NCBI RefSeq assembly: GCF_005116445.1
Contig: NZ_SWBQ01000001.1
Coordinates: forward strand, 868,001-932,000
Length of the DNA: 64,000 nucleotides
Source: Pedobacter frigoris
GTDB lineage: Bacteria > Bacteroidota > Bacteroidia > Sphingobacteriales > Sphingobacteriaceae
Direction of reading: 5' to 3'
Shown here piece by piece: positions 6,208 to 10,423 of this stretch. The first letter of the stretch is position 1. Every line of letters begins with the position of its first letter. Under the pieces are notes generated by a model. That model did not search any database. It was not told the origin of the DNA and was given only the letters and a program-made list of their open reading frames with translations. A program made the position numbers and the translations under genes.

Positions 6208-6852
6208 TCAACACAACACCCTCCCCGTATACACACTGTCAGAAATACTACTCCTGTCGTCCGTGATAAAAGAAATATACGTCTCTGCAAACCTGCCTTT
6301 CATAGCAACCGGAACCTTCAGCAGTTCCTCGCAATCAGATCGCTCTGCACCGCTGATGATCTGAAAAAATCGTGGCTGATCAACCTCAGGAAAATACACC
6401 AGCAACATGGTACGGTCGTAAGGACTGCCGTTAGGATCTTGTGCATCAAAAGCCCAGGTAAACTTAAACCCATCTGCAACGCTTTGTACGGCAGCATTTA
6501 GCGGCAGCGAGAGGTTACCTTCGCTGAGGCGCACCGCAGGATAATCAATTTCCTGGTTAGGATATTGACCCTTGATGGCATGCTTAAGGTTATAAGACCT
6601 GAAGCAGTTGCTGGCCGAGTCAGCCTTTTCAATACCTTTCAGTGCAAAGCCCACCCTGATGTATAGCTTTAAGTACGAAATGACGGGCTTCAGTACGCTC
6701 ATTCGCTGTTGCTGCGCCAGCTGTTTCTCTGATTTGGGCTTGATGATGTGCGAAGCTGCGCGTACTTGCTGTTTGCCGTACCTTACGTAATAATAGGTAT
6801 TGCCTATTTTTCCTGTCACTAGCCCCTGGGCTCCGGTTGATGATCTTGCCAT
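6208..6852 (-). CDS. DUF6266 family protein
   Basis: A 214-residue protein recognisable as DUF6266, a Bacteroidota family of unknown function: N-terminal MARSSTGAQGLVTGKIGNTY, a basic middle, then beta-strand-rich segments ending SDSVYTGRVL. No signal peptide, membrane span or catalytic motif is visible. A paralogue lies at 19029-19670 and shares the layout (SSDSVFVGAL at its end). The start is set by ATGGCAAGATC, preceded by an AATGGTT motif that also precedes the paralogue. Divergent from the sigma-factor gene across an 11-bp tandem array. Confidence 0.75.
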   Translation of the reverse strand: MARSSTGAQGLVTGKIGNTYYYVRYGKQQVRAASHIIKPKSEKQLAQQQRMSVLKPVISYLKLYIRVGFALKGIEKADSASNCFRSYNLKHAIKGQYPNQEIDYPAVRLSEGNLSLPLNAAVQSVADGFKFTWAFDAQDPNGSPYDRTMLLVYFPEVDQPRFFQIISGAERSDCEELLKVPVAMKGRFAETYISFITDDRSSISDSVYTGRVLC

Positions 6853-7086: not shown

Positions 7087-7132
7087 TACTAGAATTCATT
7101 AAATTAGTATAACGGGATATAACTCAAAATTG

Positions 7133-7741
7133 ATGGCTGCATACAGAAAATATACAGATCAGGAAATTCTCCTGCTGGCGCGGGAGGATAGGGAGAAGGC
7201 ATTTGATATCGCCTTTAACCAGTATTGGCCTGTTTTGTATCACCATGCTTTTAAAAAAGTGCAGTCTAAAGATCTTGCTAAAGACATTGTGCAGGATGTA
7301 TTCATTAAAATGTGGGACAATATATCTAAGCTTGCCGAGCAGGATAGTTTGCTGCCCTATCTCTACACTGTTTTGCGTAACAATACTTTAAAGCAGTTTG
7401 AGAAGGATAATGTGAGGTTGAAATATGCGATGAACCGGGTGACCTATCAGGATGATTTTGAAGTAACATCGCATCATCTGCTGATCAGCAAGGAACTCCA
7501 GGCAATTATTGATGACGAAATGTCCAGAATGCCTGCCCGGATGAAAGAAATTTATGAATTAAAAAAGGAACAAAACTTTAGTATTAAGCAGATTGCAGAA
7601 CAATTGGGATTATCTGAGCAGACAGTAAAGAACCAATTGCATACCGCATCGAACCGCCTAAAAGAGCGGATTAAGGTTTATGATCCTGGGTTGATTTCTG
7701 TTGCTTTGATGGTGAGCGGGTTGTATGGGTATGTAAACTAA
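7133..7741 (+). CDS. ECF sigma-70 family RNA polymerase sigma factor (FecI-like)
   Basis: A 202-residue sigma factor with region 2 in the N-terminal half (KDLAKDIVQDVFIKMWDNI, near 48-66) and a region 4 helix-turn-helix in the C-terminal half (FSIKQIAEQLGLSEQTVKNQ, near 142-161). This is the Bacteroidota expansion of FecI-like ECF factors that switch on SusC/SusD loci when a FecR partner relays an outer-membrane signal. The ATG at 7133 is preferred over a TTG one codon earlier. The usual partner fecR is displaced to 9278 by the rpn gene and its duplicate. The C-terminus (LISVALMVSGLYGYVN) is hydrophobic. Confidence 0.92.
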   Translation: MAAYRKYTDQEILLLAREDREKAFDIAFNQYWPVLYHHAFKKVQSKDLAKDIVQDVFIKMWDNISKLAEQDSLLPYLYTVLRNNTLKQFEKDNVRLKYAMNRVTYQDDFEVTSHHLLISKELQAIIDDEMSRMPARMKEIYELKKEQNFSIKQIAEQLGLSEQTVKNQLHTASNRLKERIKVYDPGLISVALMVSGLYGYVN

Positions 7742-7855: not shown

Positions 7856-7887
7856 TTTGGATTCTGTCCTGATCCTATTTATATTTG
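7856..7887 (+). promoter_or_regulatory. Promoter of the rpn-family gene
   Basis: Full match to the Bacteroidota promoter: TTTG (7856-7859), 20-bp spacer, TATATTTG (7880-7887). It shows that the rpn cassette is transcribed on its own rather than only with fecI. It leaves at most a few nucleotides of leader before GTG 7891 or ATG 7906. Confidence 0.75.
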
Positions 7888-7905
7888 TCAGTGAAAAACT
7901 TTGTG

Positions 7906-8895
7906 ATGAAACAAGAAGATATTCCTGACGACACGCTCCGTGAACCAGCAATTGCCTATGGCAGCAGAAAGGAGCAAGAACCCTATTTTTTTGATCCTCT
8001 AGAGGATGTGGGTTTCAAGCGCCTGTTTGCTGCTGAACAAAATCAAGAACTGACGGTCGCTTTCCTGAACCATGTACTCCGGGGAAAAAAGACGGTGGTT
8101 TCTATTGAAGTCCTCAAAAGCGAATATCCGGGCGAAACGAAAGAAGAAGGGCAGGTGACGGTTGACATGGTTTGCAAGGATCAGGAAGGAGCTATTTTTC
8201 TGGTCGAGATGCAGAGGCAGTATTATAAGAATTTCAAGAAGCGCTCCTTGTATTACGGATCCAGACTCCTGGTGGAGCAGGCGCCCCGCGGCAATCGCAG
8301 GGAATGGGGGTATGACCTGAAGGATGTTTATGTGATAGCATTGCTTGAGGAATTTAAAGTTAGCGAAGACGAGGATCGCATTTGGCTTCATGATGTTGCC
8401 CTTTTCGATACTACTGCAGAAAAAGTATTCTGCAGTGCACTTAGCTTTATTTATATCGAAATGCCTCATTTTCAGAAGACAGAGCAAGAACTGAAAAGCG
8501 ATTTGGAGCGGTGGATTTATGCTTTAAAGCATTTGAATCATTTGCAAGCGATACCGGCTACATTTTCTGAGCCCGAACTGGTTCAGTTTTGTGAGGCCGC
8601 CAGATACATAAACTTAACAAAAGCAGAAAAAAATATGATCAGCAACAGGACAAAACAGCGCTGGGATTACTATGCGATAATCGAAGGTGCGAAGGAAATA
8701 GGAGAAGCAGAAGGTCGTGCAATTGGAGAATCAATTGGAGAAGCCAGAGGAGAAGCAAAAGGTCGTGCAATTGGAGAGGCCATGGTGTATGAAAAGGCGG
8801 TAAAAACGGCCAGAAAGCTCAAGGGCAAAGGCTTTTTAATTGAGGAAATTGCCGAACTGACAGAACTTAGCGTGGCTGAGATAAAAAGCCTGTAA
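7906..8895 (+). CDS. Rpn-family (PD-(D/E)XK) recombination-promoting nuclease
   Basis: 329 residues from the ATG (an in-frame GTG at 7891 is an alternative). The N-terminal two-thirds is the PDDEXK nuclease fold of the Rpn / putative-transposase family: FFDPLEDVGFKRLF at the start, the Asp in TVDMVCKD, and VEMQRQ carrying the Glu-x-Gln. The C-terminal domain (from about residue 244) holds four-residue repeats GEAE-GRAI-GESI-GEAR-GEAK-GRAI-GEAM and a helical tail. Known of the family: E. coli Rpn proteins are toxic DNases with anti-phage activity, held in check by a separately translated C-terminal fragment whose four-residue repeat number varies. Here the gene has its own promoter, splits fecI from fecR, and is followed by a second copy of the C-terminal domain. 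Confidence 0.85.
   Translation: MKQEDIPDDTLREPAIAYGSRKEQEPYFFDPLEDVGFKRLFAAEQNQELTVAFLNHVLRGKKTVVSIEVLKSEYPGETKEEGQVTVDMVCKDQEGAIFLVEMQRQYYKNFKKRSLYYGSRLLVEQAPRGNRREWGYDLKDVYVIALLEEFKVSEDEDRIWLHDVALFDTTAEKVFCSALSFIYIEMPHFQKTEQELKSDLERWIYALKHLNHLQAIPATFSEPELVQFCEAARYINLTKAEKNMISNRTKQRWDYYAIIEGAKEIGEAEGRAIGESIGEARGEAKGRAIGEAMVYEKAVKTARKLKGKGFLIEEIAELTELSVAEIKSL
8635..8895 (+). CDS. Possible intragenic small protein (RpnS-like) within the rpn gene
   Basis: In-frame ATG at codon 244 of the rpn gene, preceded by an A-rich stretch (AAAAGCAGAAAAAAAT) of the kind that supports initiation in Bacteroidota. It would give an 86-residue protein starting MISNRTKQRW, the repeat-bearing C-terminal domain alone. 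The downstream duplicate begins at precisely this ATG with a similar A-rich lead, supporting it as a real domain and translation boundary. By analogy with E. coli RpnS it would neutralise the full-length nuclease. Inferred, not shown. Confidence 0.4.
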   Translation: MISNRTKQRWDYYAIIEGAKEIGEAEGRAIGESIGEARGEAKGRAIGEAMVYEKAVKTARKLKGKGFLIEEIAELTELSVAEIKSL

Positions 8896-8927
8896 CAACT
8901 ATTAGCAGTTTGCAAAAAAAACAAAAT

Positions 8928-9200
8928 ATGATCAGCAACAGGACAAAACAGCGCTGGGATTACTATGCGATAATCGAAGGTGCGAAGGAAATAGGAGAAG
9001 CAGAAGGTCGTGCAATTGGAGAATCAATTGGAGAGGCTAGAGGAGAGGCCAGAGGAGAAGCAAAAGGTCGTGCAATTGGAGAGGCCATGATGTATGAAAA
9101 GGCGGTAAAAACGGCCAGAAAGCTCAAGGACAAAGGCTTTTTAATTGAGGAAATTGCCGAACTGACAGAACTTAGCGTGGCTGAAATAGAAAGTCTGTGA
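8928..9200 (+). CDS. Stand-alone duplicate of the Rpn C-terminal domain (candidate free antitoxin)
   Basis: A 90-residue ORF nearly identical to the last 86 residues of the preceding rpn gene. It begins at the equivalent ATG (MISNRTKQRW), 32 bp after the rpn stop, and ends with its own TGA. The only length change is one extra four-residue repeat (GEAR-GEAR-GEAK instead of GEAR-GEAK), a 12-bp insertion; otherwise a few substitutions (V to M before the YEKA segment, G to D in LKDKG, K to E near the end). The frame is intact. It may be an independently encoded RpnS-type inhibitor, or simply a fragment left by tandem duplication. An in-frame extension to 8910 adds six residues. Confidence 0.6.
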   Translation: MISNRTKQRWDYYAIIEGAKEIGEAEGRAIGESIGEARGEARGEAKGRAIGEAMMYEKAVKTARKLKDKGFLIEEIAELTELSVAEIESL

Positions 9201-9277: not shown

Positions 9278-10423
9278 GTGGAACTAAAAGAAATCAAGGC
9301 ACTAATCGAAAAATATAACCGGAATGAGGTTTCTGAAGAGGAGCGCGATCTGGTGATCGAATGGTACGACAGGATTGAGGGTAATGCCCCTGAATTTGCT
9401 GCGGGTGAGTTTGATGCAATCACACTGGAGGTTTACCGGAATCTACAACATTATAGATCAGGAAACAACGAGCAAGTGAAACGGGTTCGTTTATGGCCTC
9501 GAATTGCTGCGGTTGCCGCGGCAGTGGCGATGGTTGTGTTTGGGGTTTGGTTTTTTAATTATAGAGGTGAGATCCTTCGCGATGGTCTGGATGACAAAAG
9601 CGTTGTGATGAACGATATCGCTCCGGGCAAAAACGGAGCAACGATTACACTTGCTAATGGGAAGGTAATTCAATTGAGCGATGCGAAGAGCGGGGTGGTG
9701 ATAGGGGAAGACTTAAAGTATAGTGACGGTGAGATCCTTCGCGATGCTCTGGATGACAATGATGGTGTTTTGTCATCCCGAGTTCCGAGGGATCTAGTTG
9801 CCTCTACCACCAAAGGCCAAACCTATATATTTACCTTGCCTGATGGCACCAAAGTATGGCTAAACGCAGCCAGTAAGTTAAAATTCCCATCTGACCTGTC
9901 TGGTAAAGAACGCAAAATTGAACTAGAGGGAGAAGCGTATTTTGAAGTGGCTAAGGATAAGAAACGACCTTTTATAGTGATAAGCGAAGGACAGCAACTG
10001 GAAGTATTGGGTACACATTTTAACCTAAATACCTATGGCGATGAGCACCCTGGAACAGTAACCAGTTTGCTGGAAGGATCGGTGAAGGTAACCGGCAAGG
10101 AAGGATCACGTGTACTGAAACTGGGTGAGCGGGGGATAAATACGATAAAAGGAGTATTGCTGCTTAGAGGAGATGCCCAGGATGATGTAGACTGGAAAGA
10201 AGGGCGATTTGTGTTTGACAACGAGCCACTGGAGCAGATCATGGCAAAGGTATCACGCTGGTACGATGTAGCAATTGTGGATGAGCGCAAAGCTGCTAAG
10301 CCTGTAACGTTTAAAGGGTCTTTTTCAAGGTACGAGAATGTATCAAAAGTACTATCGAAGCTAGAATTTGCAGGAGATGTGAAGTTTAAAATTGAAGGTA
10401 GAAAAATTACGATTACCAAATAG
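9278..10423 (+). CDS. FecR-type anti-sigma / signal transducer
   Basis: 381 residues from a GTG start. The N-terminal cytoplasmic segment (1-70) should hold the sigma factor; one membrane span lies near 75-92 (IAAVAAAVAMVVFGVWFF). The periplasmic FecR domain contains the usual FTLPDGTKVWLNAASKLKFP near 185-205 and the C-terminal DUF4974-like part (KGSFSRYENVSKVLSKLEF). It would pass a signal from the STN domain of the SusC-like receptor to the FecI-like sigma factor encoded at 7133. Odd: two in-frame copies of GEILRDxLDD (residues about 97 and 151), the second part of a REP-like palindrome, sit in the linker region. A rpn cassette separates it from its sigma gene. Confidence 0.9.
   Translation: MELKEIKALIEKYNRNEVSEEERDLVIEWYDRIEGNAPEFAAGEFDAITLEVYRNLQHYRSGNNEQVKRVRLWPRIAAVAAAVAMVVFGVWFFNYRGEILRDGLDDKSVVMNDIAPGKNGATITLANGKVIQLSDAKSGVVIGEDLKYSDGEILRDALDDNDGVLSSRVPRDLVASTTKGQTYIFTLPDGTKVWLNAASKLKFPSDLSGKERKIELEGEAYFEVAKDKKRPFIVISEGQQLEVLGTHFNLNTYGDEHPGTVTSLLEGSVKVTGKEGSRVLKLGERGINTIKGVLLLRGDAQDDVDWKEGRFVFDNEPLEQIMAKVSRWYDVAIVDERKAAKPVTFKGSFSRYENVSKVLSKLEFAGDVKFKIEGRKITITK
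9566..9759 (+). repeat. 32-bp direct repeat inside fecR
   Basis: Copies at 9566-9597 and 9728-9759 differ at one base (start GGTGAGATCCTTCGCGATG, end TCTGGATGACAA). They are 162 bp apart, a multiple of three, so both encode GEILRDxLDD in the same frame. Confidence 0.9.
9732..9795. repeat. REP-like palindrome inserted in the fecR coding sequence
   Basis: Outer arms AGATCCTTCG (9732-9741) and CGAGGGATCT (9786-9795), inner arms TGGATGACA (9750-9758) and TGTCATCCC (9771-9779). The TGTCATCCCGAG...GAGGGATCT wording is the common intergenic repeat of Bacteroidota genomes. Here it stays in frame and is translated. Confidence 0.75.

Follow-up and report, generated by a model that had tools for sequence, protein, structure and literature searches.

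The window analysed here, a stretch of 64,000 nucleotides from Pedobacter frigoris, contains an intact gene for an Rpn-type nuclease that is followed, 32 nt after its stop codon and on the same strand, by a free copy of the gene's own C-terminal unit with its own start and stop (Table 1), as had been recognised in the first-pass annotation. The nuclease domain is complete, scoring 222.9 bits against PF12784 (curated cut-off 27.4) and 86.9 bits against TIGR01784 (cut-off 52.1). The D...ExQ residues, which we take to be the active-site acidic pair of Rpn / PDDEXK_2 nucleases, are present as DMVCKDQEGAIFLVEMQ, and the same pattern was found in 128 of 131 related ORFs. The layout is that of a gene within a gene, with an in-frame ATG at codon 244, a C-terminal domain predicted to be helical and GEAR-type repeats. 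By homology, this would be an Rpn toxin–antitoxin gene encoding the nuclease RpnL together with RpnS translated from inside; in the systems already described, RpnS is translated from inside rpn genes and binds and inhibits RpnL (PMC10327210).

Table 1. Features of the rpn locus and its immediate neighbours in the window.
Feature	Position	Strand	Evidence or remark
ECF-type sigma factor gene, directly 5′	7130..7741	+	PF08281, PF04542
Bacteroidota-type promoter-like motif, TTTG-N20-TATATTTG	7856..7887	+	Ends 18 nt before the rpn ATG
rpnL, full-length Rpn-type PD-(D/E)XK nuclease, 329 aa	7906..8895	+	PF12784 E 6e-66 over model 1-229 of 229; TIGR01784 E 1.9e-24; D..C...hEMQ motif
Putative internal rpnS frame, 86 aa, ATG 8635 = codon 244, A-rich leader	8635..8895	+	Homology to other internal units
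Four-residue repeat tract of the resident unit	8701..8781	+	Read from sequence
32-nt spacer with the A-rich leader of the free copy	8896..8927	+	Read from sequence
Free rpnS copy, 90 aa, ATG 8928, TGA 9198-9200	8928..9200	+	ORF list, repeat finder, pairwise comparison; predicted long helix and two short helices
Four-residue repeat tract of the free copy, longer by one unit	8994..9086	+	Read from sequence
Extra 12-bp GEAR unit	9030..9041	+	Copy-versus-copy comparison; placement within the tract arbitrary
FecR-type anti-sigma gene, directly 3′	9278..10423	+	PF04773, PF16344

The rpn gene and a second copy of its C-terminal unit

The ORF list opens the rpn frame at TTG 7885 and the free frame at TTG 8910. 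The rpn gene had been credited with its own promoter, and a TTTG-N20-TATATTTG motif, presumably the Bacteroidota-type promoter consensus, does stand just before its ATG; however, the window holds five such motifs where 4.8 are expected, which leaves only the position of this one as suggestive. The rpn gene and the free copy are likely co-transcribed, because the motif scan found no such motif from the rpn start to the free copy. Internal initiation is supported in the family by the sequence AAGGAG, which in Bacteroidota rpn genes precedes the internal start at 52 of 65 KEE sites, compared with 4 of 32 KEE sites in other parts of these genes (p 2.5e-10, the rows being related). Bacteroidota are thought to rely little on Shine-Dalgarno-like motifs, which makes this enrichment noteworthy. 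The aligned start position was read in 122 long genes and is ATG in 65, TTG in 9 and another codon in 48; in some subfamilies the methionine sits a residue or two earlier. The window gene reads KAEKN before its internal start and has an A-rich leader without AAGGAG.

The profile of the C-terminal unit matches the solved RpnA antitoxin 7TH0 (E 2e-6), although the best match is not 7TH0 but 8VD6, named CAP REPEAT (E 1.5e-13); among its further matches are several chains of pentatricopeptide and of designed helical-repeat proteins. The AlphaFold2 prediction from the two window sequences, with an alignment two deep, has a mean pLDDT of 83 and places helices at residues 4-38 and 40-68 followed by two short ones, which is consistent with an RpnS whose first helix has been lengthened by repeats. 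The full-length window protein had no PDB sequence match at E up to 1, and neither window protein was matched by PADLOC at E up to 0.1.

The repeat finder paired 8627-8762 with 8920-9055 (96%) and 8720-8893 with 9025-9198 (94%), far beyond chance. The copies are identical from 5 nt upstream of both ATGs through the first 107 nt of the frames, and the homology as a whole spans from those 5 nt to the stop, so that the free copy begins at the counterpart of the internal ATG, as proposed earlier. Outside this homology the sequences are unrelated, with differences at 36 of 51 sites further upstream and at 21 of 30 sites after the stops. Within it there are three synonymous and three nonsynonymous changes (dS 0.055, dN 0.015) and one additional in-frame GEAR unit, in agreement with the earlier reading of one extra 12-bp repeat and a few substitutions; the first 34 residues are identical and identity outside the insert is 97%. 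The comparison shows the free copy to be a recent partial duplicate of the unit whose 5′ limit lies shortly before the internal start codon and which ends at the stop. The changes are too few to reveal constraint on the free copy. Repeats are a common cause of misassembly, but the chance of an assembly artefact is negligible here, since the copies differ by six substitutions and 12 bp and their flanks are unrelated.

The pair lies between the ECF sigma gene and the FecR gene, which is followed by a gene for a TonB-dependent receptor. The gap between the sigma and FecR genes is 1,536 nt in the window. Eight of eleven other FecR loci have a sigma gene directly upstream, its alignment ending 95-143 nt before the FecR match, and a recognisable upstream sigma gene was not found in the other three. 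Because the usual gap is so much shorter, the rpn module looks inserted between the sigma and FecR genes. FecR genes form a large paralogous family whose best matches in other genomes are only about half identical and no orthologous empty site was found among them, so that only the usual sigma-FecR spacing can serve for comparison. Elsewhere in the P. frigoris genome, rpn occurs at three more sites, of which one is fragmented. When 145 genomes of the genus, this one included, were searched at the DNA level, 6 had matches; besides the window's own genome, one match was long (69% over 692 nt, in G112), and there another rpn remnant lies downstream of the rpn gene in place of a free copy of its own. 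A search with the 90-aa protein gave matches in 22 of 99 genomes of the genus, the best-scoring one outside the own genome being 46% identical. As far as sampled, the window free copy appears to be recent and lineage-specific.

A gene of the DUF6266 family (PF19781) is found at 6208-6852 on the minus strand, roughly 1 kb away from rpn. PF19781 has 26 matches in the genome, fragments included, and at three of the four rpn sites a match lies no more than about 1.5 kb away, which on a rough binomial estimate has a chance of about 4e-5. Among the other fetched loci, PF19781 was found near rpn only in L151, L210 and L011/L040/L144. In L011/L144 (G079), a lone 71-aa relative of the window unit stands beside a nuclease-end remnant, apparently the surviving short frame of a decayed rpn.

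Free copies elsewhere and their repeat number

The arrangement had been put forward as possibly undescribed. It is of a known kind, since separate downstream rpnS genes have already been reported for some E. coli, downstream of rpnE (where the gene is called ypaA) and of rpnC (Zhong et al. 2023, PMC10327210). Judged by sequence, the layout of the window is that of E. coli rpnE-ypaA, in which a free C-terminal copy lies directly downstream on the same strand and starts at the internal start codon with its leader. In K-12, the free copy also has one four-residue repeat more than the rpnE C-terminus. Unlike the window, the E. coli duplication is older (L-S dS 0.46-0.70) with a diverged C-flank, and K-12 RpnE is annotated as inactive. 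E. coli rpnC with rpnCS likewise has a separate downstream copy, whereas the N-terminus of that free copy differs (MEIKTRRETRQTLAQ vs MMTLAQ).

The same study also bears on how these units work: the product of K-12 YpaA was detected by tagging, RpnS dimerises via the helix that bears the repeats, and adding one repeat prevents RpnC from being neutralised unless the addition is present in both partners; only RpnS of equal repeat number blocked RpnC (PMC10327210). Loss of rpnS by deletion or fusion is also mentioned, and of repeat expansion and possible contraction it is said there that this 'warrants further study'. Its main text does not compare the repeat numbers of ypaA and rpnE; the SI alignments may show them. 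Among the matches listed, one 2017 study (PMC5350276) was the only other title found on Rpn function, the remaining papers mentioning the name incidentally.

The E. coli rpnE sample consisted of K-12 and 17 of 60 spread matches, chosen for diversity. In none of the 14 loci with both units (L236 included) was the repeat number equal, and ten distinct combinations were present; the remaining four loci read carry a fused rpnE. Six rpnC loci were fetched, of which L092 was set aside as rpnC is a fragment there, and free and resident units were equal in length in none of the other five, which have an intact rpnC and a free copy. No free copy was found at K-12 rpnC. Altogether, the lengths are equal in 0 of 19 E. 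coli loci read. In the locus set aside (E. coli OkiPb01695), rpnC is cut to a C-terminal fragment that adjoins an ISEc49 (IS66-like) transposase gene.

A profile search with the C-terminal unit, covering overlapping sets of 400 family, 400 order and 392 phylum genomes and restricted to the matches listed, extended the comparison to Bacteroidota. It gave 129 distinct intact long genes with at least 500 nt downstream, 29 with an alignable downstream ORF and 100 without, in a set enriched for free copies in that 60 of its regions were picked mainly for short frames. The 54 regions fetched as long frames, with no copy known beforehand, held four open free copies and two that were broken or partly unread; none was found in 20 phylum-wide regions. 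This search for Bacteroidota rpn genes with a downstream C-terminal-only paralogue, suggested in the first-pass annotation, showed that open free copies recur and left 25 usable pairs. Set aside beforehand were L210 (equal length, free frame interrupted), L184 (unread bases, readable part apparently equal), the broken copies of L160 and L083, the free copies with a different tail type (L119, L113, L132), two chance alignments (L166, L179) and another rpn (L039).

Free and resident units are equal in length in two of the 25 pairs (L205, L212), pairs found by shared peptides included; if L210 and L184 are counted as equal, the figure becomes 4 of 27. The pairs are not independent, as L101 and L103 apparently represent a single locus in two species and both L110 and L140 contribute two copies. 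A few rows are odd: in L106 the copy is 787 nt away, the length difference in L168 is 11 residues and so no multiple of four, and an obvious ATG at the homologous start is missing from L202 and L124. The difference between free and resident units is 24 in L035. Even the four least diverged pairs (the window, L134, L122 and one of L140), whose flanks differ at no more than 4 of 141 sites, are already one unit apart. These counts fit the earlier proposal that the duplicate is freed to vary in repeat number.

As separate observations, the equal-repeat pair L212 (G699) involves a gene missed by the nuclease profile, and in L014/L140 (G035) rpn is followed by two free copies in a small cassette-like array; compared with the resident unit, the first of these has three units more and the other has one unit fewer.

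Mismatch is no more frequent than the high variability of repeat number would predict. Permutation of the ten distinct rpnE pairs, with 0 equal against 0.90 expected, gave as low a number in 37% of permutations, and for 20 Bacteroidota pairs, with 1 equal against 2.9 expected, in 17%; the rpnC set, with 0 expected equal, is uninformative. In an L-L control of long genes with similar N-flanks from different loci, lengths agreed in 64 of 545 pairs, which is no different from 2 of 24 Bacteroidota pairs (p 1.0; count before L211 joined). Selection for mismatch is not supported, the permutation and the L-L control accounting for it. Nothing seems to keep a free copy matched to its neighbour; mismatch appears to be tolerated, and selection for it is not shown.

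The first-pass annotation had also named dosage among the properties free to vary. A free copy that just adds to the supply of RpnS against its neighbouring toxin would suit the near identity of the two window units and the detection of the ypaA product in K-12. We consider this improbable: the window pair differs in repeat number or unit length, as do all 19 E. coli loci read and 23 of the 25 Bacteroidota pairs, and extra dosage fits badly with the sole case tested, RpnC, in which a one-repeat mismatch was enough to leave the toxin active (PMC10327210).

Evidence of exchange between toxin genes and free copies

Over the leader and N-flank (69 sites) of the 14 E. coli rpnE loci, toxin and free copy have six shared polymorphisms and no fixed differences, whereas the C-flank (90 sites) has two shared polymorphisms and 12 fixed differences. 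Over the 57 N-flank sites of 13 loci, a toxin and its own free copy show 2.6 differences, toxin and free copy of different strains 2.4 and two toxins 2.6. Because polymorphisms divide in this way and own pairs are no closer than cross-strain pairs, the start-side half acts like a single pool with exchange and the far half like two separate lineages, the boundary lying around the repeats. Further evidence comes from the fused genes. In 25 of the 60 spread E. coli matches there was a single place of match, and all four read (H21, H36, H41, H42) are rpnE with a tail of the free-copy type; these four loci without a separate copy represent three distinct proteins. The three fused tails compared at the DNA level differ from K-12 ypaA at 0, 2 and 3 of 111 sites and from the K-12 toxin tail at 15-17 of 90. 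In each of the five rpnC loci, free copy and toxin have 1 difference in the 24 sites of the short N part; their tails differ at 7-8 of 57 sites in four loci and at 2 in L090, whose free copy has a toxin-like tail. Because the L090 tail differs at so few sites, exchange can apparently reach the tail and is not always bound to the start side.

In Bacteroidota, the N-flank is less diverged than the C-flank in 19 of 21 pairs, the two exceptions being the pairs of L140; the clearest cases are L107 (0/51 vs 17/90) and L127 (0/51 vs 36/90). Stronger constraint on the start side could add to this flank pattern, and for that reason E. coli offers the better evidence of exchange. In L119, L113 and L132, the start-side half of the free copy resembles the neighbouring toxin but the tail belongs to a different type, as though entire C-terminal ends had been swapped.

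The main rival to a functional reading is that a repeat-rich gene sheds tandem partial duplicates which decay without function. The recent origin of the window copy, absent from the one long DNA match among the 145 genus genomes, would be expected of such a by-product, as would the broken copies elsewhere (L160, L083, L210) and the existence of a surviving short frame beside a toxin remnant (L011/L144). Yet open free copies recur, and in 15 of 21 pairs the homology ends no more than about 25 nt 5′ of the start codon. Constraint on ypaA also speaks against it: among alleles, pN/pS is 0.21 for the ypaA tail and 0.27 for the toxin tail, although exchange with fused toxin alleles could contribute to this signal. 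On balance, we regard a neutral by-product as unlikely, while giving it more weight than the other alternatives.

A possible source of new specificities

The reading of the window copy to which we give an even chance is that it is non-cognate to the toxin of its locus: a variant antitoxin of orphan type that can serve as a partner in recombination, and not extra dosage. The 90-aa frame would be translated from the same message as the toxin. Its product would probably not inhibit the toxin of its own locus, which is of the 86-residue type, because a one-repeat difference abolished neutralisation of RpnC, the one tested protein on which the repeat rule rests (PMC10327210). The free copy could then act as an orphan unit of different specificity, countering toxins of another repeat number. 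It may also recombine with the toxin gene through the start-side sequence that they share, giving a toxin with a new C-terminus and an internal antitoxin that would match it automatically.

A different use of the longer copy would be to pair with the resident RpnS, keep it off the toxin and so tune the release of the nuclease. This reading draws on the dimerisation of RpnS through its repeat-bearing helix (PMC10327210) and on the window copy being predicted as a nearly continuous long helix with two short ones, but mismatched repeats should weaken the very same interface and we hold it to be very improbable.

Extended to the family, and here more tentatively than for the window copy itself, the non-cognate reading would make free rpnS copies expressed specificity cassettes, with a repeat number and C-flank unlike those of the resident unit, that recombine via the shared leader and start-side helix. 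Such exchange would switch the C-terminus of the toxin in one step, and since the toxin gene contains the antitoxin, the switched toxin would still be self-neutralised; the product of the free copy may in addition protect against the other type. The orphan modules of CDI/Rhs systems offer a parallel in that displaced 3′ modules lie downstream of the full gene with shared sequence that could allow recombination and toxin switching (PMC4927057). In contrast to Rpn, whose antitoxin is inside the toxin gene, those toxins are delivered and have separate immunity genes, so that the likeness is one of analogy and not of membership.

If this view is right, the free copies would amount to a system of orphan modules, similar to those of CDI/Rhs, by which an intracellular anti-phage toxin is switched. 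The repeats vary between strains and set the pairing in the tested case, which raises the question of how a cell could survive the appearance of new Rpn specificities. In E. coli rpnE, the start-side halves are shared and the far-side halves mostly distinct, and some toxins carry a free-copy tail; these features make exchange a testable route to such specificities. The extra repeat predicts non-cognate pairing and makes the window copy more interesting than a plain duplicate: the window presents a nearly isogenic natural pair of 86 and 90 residues, one repeat and three residues apart, on which the rule found for RpnC could be tested directly.
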